Shown: in pieces, positions 4,459 to 50,958 of the stretch
How the letters are laid out: each line of letters opens with the position of its first letter
Position numbering within the stretch: the stretch's first letter is position 1
Assembly: GCF_005937985.2 (NCBI RefSeq)
Contig: NZ_CP042172.1
Coordinates: forward strand, 2,790,001 to 2,854,000
DNA from: Arthrobacter sp. KBS0702
GTDB taxonomy: Bacteria; Actinomycetota; Actinomycetes; Actinomycetales; Micrococcaceae
DNA length: 64,000 nucleotides
Direction: 5' to 3'
The notes under the pieces: model-generated
Seen by the model: only the letters and a program-made list of their open reading frames with translations
What the model was told of the DNA's origin: nothing
The model's database searches: none
Translations under genes and position numbers: made by a program

Positions 4459-4552
4459 GCGCGAACGGACACTTGAGGCCCGCGAAACGCGCCTCGCCGG
4501 GGCGCGAAGTGTACGTTCGCGCCTCGCCGGGGCGCGAAGTGTACGTTCGCGC
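4459..4552. repeat. Short palindromic repeat block B (three units)
   Basis: One plus-oriented unit (4459-4483, identical to 1945-1969) is followed by two inverted units (4502-4522 and 4532-4552) with core AAGTGTACGTTCGCGC. The latter two lie in a perfect 30-bp tandem repeat (4493-4522 and 4523-4552). It is the counterpart of block A on the other side of the insertion sequence and lies just downstream of the S10 operon terminator. Confidence 0.85.
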
Positions 4553-49726: not shown

Positions 49727-49877
49727 CGAAAAAGCCCCGGACCTTGAAGGTCCGGGGCTTTCGTTTCGCCGGTTGGCGTTTCGGTGGAGGACATACGGGT
49801 CGAACGTATCGAGGCCACCCCAGTGGTGGATCCCCCTCACATCCAGTCAACGGTTTCGCACCGTTCAGCCGGATGAG
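49727..49877 (-). ncRNA. Putative small RNA (about 150 nt) opposite the glnR-mshD spacer
   Basis: A minus-strand transcript is predicted from a promoter (-35 TTGATG 49912-49907, 17 bp, -10 TATAGT 49889-49884) to the U-tailed terminator at 49761-49731. The predicted RNA begins with CTCATCC pairing with GGATGTGAG (two-base bulge) and enclosing AACGGT/ACCGTT around GCGAA; a CCACC/GGTGG hairpin and an ATACG-TTCGACC-CGTAT hairpin follow, then the terminator. No open reading frame of note lies in it. I know of no matching described family. It does not overlap glnR or mshD coding bases, so it could act in trans or on the mshD leader. Confidence 0.6.
49731..49761. terminator. Bidirectional terminator between glnR and the putative small RNA
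   Basis: A perfect 15-bp stem (AAAGCCCCGGACCTT and complement, one-base loop) lies 41 bases past the glnR stop. On the minus strand it is followed by TTTTTCG, the better T-run; on the plus strand by TTTCG. It can end both glnR and a leftward transcript. Confidence 0.9.
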
Positions 49878-49883
49878 ATATCG

Positions 49884-49912
49884 ACTATACGTCCCCGGGG
49901 CGGATGCATCAA
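49884..49912 (-). promoter_or_regulatory. Promoter of the putative small RNA
   Basis: TTGATG (49912-49907) and TATAGT (49889-49884) on the minus strand are exactly 17 bp apart. The sequence GGACGTATAG spanning the -10 occurs again in opposite orientation at 49944-49953 before mshD, a 10-bp perfect inverted repeat. Confidence 0.6.
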
Positions 49913-49950
49913 ATCCGAGGGATTCCGCGCGTCGGCAGGCGGCGGACGTA

Positions 49951-49956
49951 TAGCCT
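49951..49956 (+). promoter_or_regulatory. -10 box of a leaderless promoter (mshD)
   Basis: TAGCCT ends six bases before the mshD ATG (49963); it overlaps the TATAGC form of the GGACGTATAG motif. No ribosome binding site lies between. Confidence 0.5.
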
Positions 49957-49962
49957 TGCACC

Positions 49963-50958
49963 ATGAGTCCCGCGCATCCGGAGAACTGGCCCGTACTCAC
50001 CCTTCAGGGAGCTGTCGACGAACAGCTCCTGCGGGACGTCACGACGCTCGTGGCCGCCGCCGAAGAGTCGGACGGCAACCCGCCGCTATCCGAGCAGACC
50101 CTCGTCACGCTCCGCGCCCGCGACGCCGGTCCGCACACCGTGCTGGCCCTGGCCCTCTACTCCCCCGACTATTCCGGCGACTCCCCGGCCCGGCACCGCG
50201 CCGGCGCGGGCCGCGGCAACGACCTGGCCGGGTTCGCCGTGGTGATCGGGGAACCCGACGGGACCGGGGTGCTGGAAGTGGCCGTGCACCCGAGCTACCG
50301 CAACCAGGGCGTCGCGGACCGGCTGGTCGGCGAACTGCAGACGGTGCGCGGCTTCGCCGGCCTCAAGGCCTGGTCGCACGGCAATCACGAGGCCGCGGCG
50401 GACCTGGCCGCCCGCTACGGCTATGCCCCGGTCCGGGAGCTCTGGAAGATGCGGCTCGCCACGGCCGCCTCTGCACTGCCCGACGTCGCCCTGCCCGACG
50501 GCGTCTCGCTGCGCGGCTTCGTGCCGGGCCAGGACGAGGAGGCCTGGCTCGCGGTCAACCGGGCCGCGTTCGCCCACCACCCGGAACAGGGGAACATGAG
50601 CCGCGCCGACCTGGACGCCCGGATGGCCGAGCCGTGGTTCGACCCCGCAGGATTCCTGCTCGCGGTCGACGTCGCCGGCCGGATCCTCGGCTTCCACTGG
50701 ACCAAGGTCCACCCCCGGCACGGCGAGCACCCGGCGATCGGCGAGGTGTACGTCGTCGGCGTCGCCCCCGAGGCGCAGGGCACCGGGCTGGGCAAGGCAC
50801 TCACAGTCGCCGGCATCAGGCACCTGCAGCAGCAGGGGCTGCACGCCGTCATGCTGTACGTCGACGGCGACAACATTCCCGCCGTCGAACTCTACCGCCG
50901 GCTCGGGTTTTCGCGCTGGGACATGGACGTGATGTACGCGCCGCGGGACGGGCAGTAA
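49963..50958 (+). CDS. mshD: Mycothiol synthase
   Basis: A 331-residue double-GNAT enzyme that acetylates Cys-GlcN-Ins, the last step of mycothiol synthesis. The N-terminal domain has VLEVAVHPSYRNQGVADRLV and the C-terminal catalytic domain VYVVGVAPEAQGTGLGKALT. Length and two-GNAT plan match MshD. Adjacent glnR supports the assignment, as in mycobacteria. The start appears leaderless. Confidence 0.93.
   Translation: MSPAHPENWPVLTLQGAVDEQLLRDVTTLVAAAEESDGNPPLSEQTLVTLRARDAGPHTVLALALYSPDYSGDSPARHRAGAGRGNDLAGFAVVIGEPDGTGVLEVAVHPSYRNQGVADRLVGELQTVRGFAGLKAWSHGNHEAAADLAARYGYAPVRELWKMRLATAASALPDVALPDGVSLRGFVPGQDEEAWLAVNRAAFAHHPEQGNMSRADLDARMAEPWFDPAGFLLAVDVAGRILGFHWTKVHPRHGEHPAIGEVYVVGVAPEAQGTGLGKALTVAGIRHLQQQGLHAVMLYVDGDNIPAVELYRRLGFSRWDMDVMYAPRDGQ

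Follow-up and report, generated by a model that had tools for sequence, protein, structure and literature searches.

The minus strand of the glnR–mshD spacer in Arthrobacter sp. KBS0702 carries a gene for a small RNA whose core resembles a tRNA without an anticodon arm, and this mini-tRNA probably delivers alanine to a non-ribosomal acceptor, such as membrane lipids, and not to the ribosome. The DNA analysed (the window) is a stretch of 64,000 nucleotides (nt) from contig NZ_CP042172.1, positions 2,790,001 to 2,854,000, and plain coordinates given below are window positions. The spacer is flanked by glnR (Pfam GlnR_1st) and mshD (NCBIfam mycothiol synthase). On its minus strand, a pair of promoter-like hexamers and a leader hairpin precede a core of 53 bases, which is followed by a terminator. 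The gene, its fold, its conservation, the alanine-type acceptor, the enrichment of an encoded CCA end and the gene neighbourhoods are read from the sequence. We consider it nearly certain that the RNA gene is real, and hardly less so that its core folds like a tRNA. Charging with alanine and use outside translation are each predicted with good confidence. Taken as a whole, a dedicated alanine donor outside translation, with MprF-type lipid alanylation as its likeliest user, is a reading we favour with moderate confidence; that MprF would be the main user is predicted a shade more cautiously.

In an alignment of 24 loci, the long stem was variable, while about 54 bases located 3' of that stem were almost unchanged. 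The elements described in the initial annotation of this spacer are real, and the long stem CTCATCC/GGATGTGAG is present, but the annotation stressed this variable part and overlooked the conserved segment at 49784–49836. This segment, defined by the alignment and by model searches, runs from G1 to C74 and begins with the 5' strand of a 7-bp acceptor, GGGGGAU (49830–49836, with G3 at 49834). It is followed by a D-like hairpin with a GG-containing loop, CCACC-ACUGG-GGUGG (49815–49829), five bases and a T arm, AUACG-UUCGACC-CGUAU (49793–49809). The T arm joins directly to the 3' acceptor strand GUCCUCC (49786–49792), in which U70 at 49788 stands opposite G3, and the discriminator A73 and C74 follow (49784–49785); both acceptor strands were assigned from the alignment and the covariation set. 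The T loop is of the TTC-R-A-Y-Y type, as in tRNA, and tRNA numbering is used for the core. In the aligned cores, only 4–5 nt lie between the D-like hairpin and the T arm, with no anticodon arm; the stem geometry is 7-5-5, and the predicted length with a CCA end is 55–56 nt. Since the anticodon arm is missing, the mini-tRNA cannot decode.

Comparison of 32 clean, distinct cores found by the model showed that only the D stem is variable. Three of its five pairs were doubly changed, 99.8% of the cells were paired, and the D-stem covariation score was reached by none of 500 shuffles, with the same outcome for 49 cores; the covariation in related genomes to which the initial annotation had looked is therefore present in this stem. 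The D-like loop varies in length only on the 5' side of GG (ACUGG, AGUUGG, AGUCGG, GGUUGG and GGAUGG). The TTC-R-A-Y-Y T loop and the D-loop GG were found in 32/32 model-found cores, and neither is kept in a distant relative, L274. Across 69 distinct rows, four chance rows included, 99.6% of the cells were paired, against 37–66% in slid controls. The scan pattern fixes the T arm and the 3' acceptor strand, and the 49 cores were chosen with the acceptor letters fixed, so that invariance of these parts in the two sets is by construction; the model matches and the bases downstream of A73 are free of this selection. Matches set aside as chance were 8 of 153 in the family (E of 0.0017 or worse), 2 of 20 in the order (E of about 0.004) and 4 of 73 model rows. 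As the initial annotation had stated, neither a tRNA nor a known RNA family accounts for the locus: ARAGORN made no tRNA or tmRNA call, no Rfam family exceeded its cut-off, and RF00005 (tRNA) gave no row there up to E 10.

The acceptor of the mini-tRNA is of the alanine type. G3:U70, A73 and C74 were present in all 69 rows judged true among 73 model matches and at 25/25 model-found places in the Gordonia family, and all 32 distinct model-found cores have a 7-bp acceptor with G3:U70 and A73, one of them (L062) with a mismatch at G1. The tRNA-Ala(TGC) of the same genome (L314:12232–12307) has the acceptor GGGGGCA/TGCCTCC-A-CCA, identical to the mini-RNA in its first five pairs and A73. Recognition by alanyl-tRNA synthetase (AlaRS) rests mainly on G3:U70 (PMC6451123, PMC10036535). 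The 3' end was counted, together with the transcription signals described below, at 178 distinct loci (154 Micrococcaceae-type and 24 Gordonia-family) that match the fixed acceptor/T-arm pattern with sufficient flank; loci that do not fit the pattern are not in these counts. The base 3' of A73 is C at 178/178 loci. A complete CCA is encoded at 77 of them (61/154 Micrococcaceae-type and 16/24 Gordonia-family), whereas CCA makes up 4.0% and 7.4%, respectively, of the C-starting triplets downstream. The window copy ends A-C-C-G and does not encode CCA, and therefore enzymatic addition would be needed there.

The RNA occurs in close relatives and beyond the family. A BLASTN search with the spacer as query covered 59 genomes. 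Of the 36 that belong to the same genus, its own not counted, 23 gave a strong match and 13 did not, which agrees with the presence in close relatives on which the initial annotation had hinged; outside the genus, no match reached an E of 0.004. With a model of the core, a search also proposed in that annotation, 153 of 395 Micrococcaceae genomes had a match at E<=0.1, and 145 of these, from 11 genera, lie at E below 1e-12. In the Gordonia family, the RNA was detected in 16/351 genomes, with E<=1.4e-14 in every case. Weak matches are lost in scans of this size because of their strict filters. A pattern scan of named genomes (at least 118 stretches) added Williamsia, Gordonia and one metagenome-assembled genome of Rhodococcus. 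No match to the RNA was found in the phage, plasmid and viral collections searched. Three loci labelled 'Vibrio cholerae' (L136), 'Sporosarcina' (L206) and 'Acidobacteria' (L182) have the Arthrobacter mshD–glnR arrangement, and their labels or assemblies look wrong; the label 'Kitasatospora' (L150) was also judged wrong, and its genome (G781) belongs to the Gordonia-family sample. The loci in these four records resemble those of Arthrobacter or Williamsia.

Among 136 distinct elements viewed in slices of 3–8 kb, 121 lie at mshD and/or glnR. The other 15 comprise 13 that adjoin esterase, MprF or mini-AlaRS genes and two, both from Williamsia (L201 and L222), that do not. One of the 13 is in Arthrobacter cryoconiti (L227). 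At this locus, an MprF–esterase pair (838 and 429 amino acids) lies downstream on the same strand, 320 bases from the end of the RNA. A SAM-IV riboswitch match lies by this locus on the opposite strand (L227:2147–2266, minus). In the Gordonia family, 20/25 places have an esterase, MprF or AlaRS-like gene within the 3-kb slice, and at 16/25 the esterase is downstream of the RNA on the same strand, with its first match about 220–375 bases after G1. The window RNA itself is not beside MprF or an esterase, and the next gene is convergent. The initial annotation had linked the RNA to nitrogen (glnR) and thiol (mshD) metabolism. This link is not supported: at L079, L083, L141 and L153 the RNA still adjoins mshD with no glnR match found, at L227 it is beside the MprF–esterase pair, and in another family it is located at a lipid-aminoacylation locus. 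The glnR and mshD genes look like mere neighbours of the RNA. Some loci have additional copies. In Arthrobacter sp. Br18 (L190, the same as L090), the glnR–RNA segment is tandemly duplicated with identical flanks, giving RNA copies at 4540 and 5286, about 750 bases apart, with pieces of glnR around them. L201 and L222 (the same as places L252 and L251), L262, L263 and L259 carry extra RNA copies with neither a lipid nor an AlaRS-like reference gene within the slice, and the leader in the first four is unlike that of the copy at the MprF locus.

In the Gordonia family, the mini-AlaRS gene co-occurs with the RNA. It was found (E below 1e-200) in 16/16 RNA-bearing genomes and in 0/17 RNA-lacking genomes, the latter picked from the listed negatives and not matched for kinship. 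Pfam searches detected no tRNA_SAD (editing), DHHA1 or C-terminal domain in the mini-AlaRS, whereas the single AlaRS of the Arthrobacter genome has tRNA_SAD and DHHA1. The mini-AlaRS retains an Asn and an Asp, which probably correspond to two conserved residues of the tRNA-recognition domain. That domain, with its conserved N and D, is named in PMC10036535. The mini-AlaRS family is very large: 7997 of 8000 scored candidates were relatives at E<=1e-100, the best 120 of which were listed, and they are frequently annotated merely as alanine–tRNA ligase-related. Plasmid matches are distant (38–40%). A relative named from Paenarthrobacter nicotinovorans (P0061) shows that at least one member of the Micrococcaceae has a mini-AlaRS. 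Beside one mini-AlaRS gene lies the distant form of the RNA in L274 (6520–6571; 36.6 bits, E 4.5e-7 in 34 kb with filters off), in divergent orientation and some 110 bases upstream of the point where the mini-AlaRS match begins. It keeps the acceptor and G3:U70, has 3/5 T-stem pairs changed on both sides, and its loops are unusual. At two other Micrococcales loci (L287 and L289), the mini-AlaRS adjoins MprF, and no mini-tRNA was detected.

In the Micrococcaceae, the link to MprF was assessed with the LPG_synthase_C domain. The Arthrobacter genome has two MprF genes, each adjoining an esterase. Among the 395 Micrococcaceae genomes, 110 have both the RNA and LPG_synthase_C, 35 only the RNA, 127 only LPG_synthase_C and 123 neither, giving an odds ratio of 3.0 (p 8e-7, with no correction for kinship). 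In a tree of 28 MprF proteins drawn from the matches listed, one clade consisted solely of proteins from RNA-bearing genomes; its 10 rows are gene 1 of the Arthrobacter genome, G081 and eight rows of the same genus. The type of its gene 2 was found in genomes both with and without the RNA, and G002 bears the RNA with this second type only. The group labels required four changes on the tree, a number as low in 7/500 shuffles; the tree is partial, since RNA-lacking same-genus genomes with weaker MprF matches were left out.

The signals around the core are those of a free-standing gene. The minus-strand promoter proposed in the initial annotation is present, with a -35 hexamer TTGATG (49907–49912), whose TTG is mostly kept across the aligned loci, and, 17 bp away, a -10 hexamer TATAGT (49884–49889), the commonest -10 at related loci (56 of 91 promoter-like sites). 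It is the single sigma-70-like match of this kind in 10 kb; because 0.6 ± 0.9 such matches are expected by chance, the match alone proves nothing. Promoter-like sites precede the RNA at 91/154 Micrococcaceae-type loci, compared with about 10 in mononucleotide shuffles, and at 9/24 Gordonia-family loci, compared with 2. This conservation across related loci supports the predicted promoter. The intrinsic terminator (49727–49762) has the stem that had been described with five T residues on the minus strand; a simple scanner lists just the plus-strand form, and the inverted form faces the convergent glnR. Terminator-like sites follow the RNA at 128/154 Micrococcaceae-type loci (41 in shuffles) and 11/24 Gordonia-family loci (4 in shuffles), so that the earlier proposal of a free-standing minus-strand RNA gene with its own promoter and terminator is backed by conservation.

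Between the predicted start and the base before G1 lies a 41-nt leader hairpin (49837–49877), variable in sequence and with the hairpin fold also in relatives. Where a promoter was called (84 Micrococcaceae-type loci), the leaders had a median length of 31 nt and a median folding z of -2.3 against mononucleotide shuffles (z < -1 in 75/84). The 154-nt RNA folds better than 200/200 shuffles (z -5.2), and a 61-nt piece with the core alone is no more stable than shuffles (z +0.4); the stability signal therefore sits in the leader and terminator, and core stability was dropped as support. The median probability of the acceptor helix falls from 0.91 to 0.53 once the leader is included, and therefore trimming may matter. 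The -10 regions of the RNA (49885–49894, minus) and of mshD (49944–49953, plus) both contain GGACGTATAG, in opposite orientation, and mshD, with its ATG at 49963, may be nearly leaderless.

From these observations, we propose the following mechanism. The anticodon-less core would be transcribed together with the 5' hairpin and the terminator, the transcript would be trimmed, and a CCA end would be added. G3:U70 and A73 would then direct charging with alanine, by the ordinary AlaRS in Arthrobacter and by the editing-less mini-AlaRS in Gordonia, Williamsia and Rhodococcus. The charged mini-tRNA would serve as a private alanine donor for a non-translational reaction, most likely MprF-type alanylation of membrane lipids, and the partner esterase would act as the remover.

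Several observations weigh against this proposal. The strongest is that 35 of the 145 RNA-bearing Micrococcaceae, 29 from a single genus, lack an LPG_synthase_C match at E<=1e-20, which is evidence against MprF as the sole user and weakens it as the sole partner in this family. A further 127 genomes have the enzyme and lack the RNA, and 5/25 Gordonia-family places have no lipid gene in the slice. No mini-AlaRS was found in 23 Micrococcaceae tested, 18 of which bear the RNA and five of which do not. Two of the 16 Gordonia-family mini-AlaRS matches (G783 and G1048) contain one internal stop codon, and these genes may be broken or end early. Two other Micrococcales families contributed ten mini-AlaRS loci, and a clear RNA was present only in L274; of the other nine, L273 and L275 had weak matches and seven had none at E<=0.5. 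A genome-wide search of the ten genomes was unconvincing (best E 0.07), although this is a weak test, because the L274 RNA was missed as well, and genome-scale negatives for distant forms of the RNA are weak for the same reason. As for the fold, neither the acceptor nor the T stem varies within the main sets, and both are hence silent in covariation there, and the double changes in these stems in the 69-row set come with the four chance rows. The three doubly changed D-stem pairs are not above shuffles, which had as many in 116/500 cases with 32 cores and in 338/500 with 49 cores. In plain folding, an alternative UCGA hairpin comes out 0.2 kcal/mol better than the T arm, and the T-stem probability computed for the related loci is only 0.38. 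We set this hairpin aside by an argument from variants, as it is broken by the TTCAACC and CTTTG forms. Finally, expression, trimming, charging and transfer to lipid are steps that we infer.

The RNA-bearing genomes without LPG_synthase_C speak for the rival that fares best, namely that the charged mini-tRNA serves mainly another non-ribosomal alanine transferase in the Micrococcaceae, for example a Fem-type enzyme of the peptidoglycan bridge, with MprF merely one user or a user only in the Gordonia family. The most affected genus keeps the RNA fold (L094, L097 and L093), and Fem enzymes, which are related to MprF, likewise draw on aminoacyl-tRNA (PMC2922099); the RNA neighbour in A. cryoconiti is, however, the MprF–esterase pair, and we regard this alternative as unlikely. 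Somewhat less likely again is a regulatory tRNA mimic, charged or uncharged, that would bind AlaRS or MprF and tune its activity or sense alanine without acting as a donor. Such a role would fit the position of the RNA upstream of the esterase at 16 of the 25 Gordonia-family places, and synthetase-binding tRNA-like structures are known in mRNAs (PMC9976931). However, a pure decoy does not need the CCA end that is encoded at 77 of the 178 loci, and the terminator-like sites after the RNA (at 128 of 154 Micrococcaceae-type and 11 of 24 Gordonia-family loci), together with the convergent next gene in the window, speak against it.

We consider it very improbable that the element is an ordinary base-pairing small RNA with an accidental likeness to tRNA. 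The core is mostly invariant, and its UCCUCC could pair with ribosome-binding sites, but G3:U70, A73, CCA, the GG loop, the TTCRAYY loop and the 7-5-5 stems occur together, and the RNA is repeatedly placed beside AlaRS-like and MprF genes. That the element acts at the DNA level, as a site of integration or protein binding, or is a short coding sequence is hardly credible, because, even though all three minus-strand frames are open across the window core, the stem changes are compensatory, the variable leader still forms a hairpin, the changes fall in the D stem, the D loop, the joining bases and positions 57, 59 and 60 of the T loop in a pattern that is not codon-like, and the phage, plasmid and viral collections searched gave no match.

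The donor that we propose has partial counterparts among known systems. The tRNA-like domain of tmRNA likewise combines an alanine-type acceptor containing G3:U70 with a T arm and has no anticodon arm; in contrast, the RNA described here is free-standing and short, has no mRNA-like domain and drew no tmRNA call from ARAGORN or Rfam. With tRNA-Ala it shares the first five acceptor pairs, A73, the TTCRAYY T loop and, at many loci, CCA, but it differs in the missing anticodon arm, the missing two-base linker after the acceptor, the D stem of 5 bp and the lack of any RF00005 row up to E 10. Bacterial Y RNA (YrlA) is another small RNA with a tRNA-mimicking module; no Rfam family matches the present element, and its neighbours are MprF/AlaRS-like genes or glnR–mshD. 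On the enzyme side, PesT of Corynebacterium is said to be an esterase. The Corynebacterium AlaDAGS is an MprF-type alanyl-diacylglycerol synthase, and pesT is named in a deletion strain (PMC10580965); the portions of that report available to us do not mention a mini-tRNA. LysX, an MprF fused to a copy of LysRS, and the VlmL–VlmA pair exemplify a synthetase copy dedicated to non-ribosomal transfer (PMC2922099, PMC9437257, PMC2713425). Those are dedicated synthetases for which the available parts of the sources describe no dedicated tRNA, whereas here an unfused mini-AlaRS would go together with a special carrier RNA. The mini-AlaRS of Tupanvirus, without editing and C-Ala domains, charges acceptor-stem RNA, and a companion RNA is not mentioned in the accessible part of that work (PMC10036535). 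A search of mainly open-access literature found no description of a dedicated anticodon-less carrier tRNA, although an earlier report elsewhere is possible.

If the proposal is true, no carrier tRNA dedicated to lipid aminoacylation is, as far as is known, on record before this RNA, which would also rank among the smallest free-standing bacterial tRNAs. The wider picture, which we hold in even balance, is that of an actinobacterial private alanine channel to membrane lipids, in which a genomically encoded anticodon-less tRNA, in some lineages with its own editing-less AlaRS, would supply alanine to an MprF-type transferase. Such a natural minimal tRNA, served in some lineages by its own minimal synthetase, would be relevant to tRNA evolution and to orthogonal charging.
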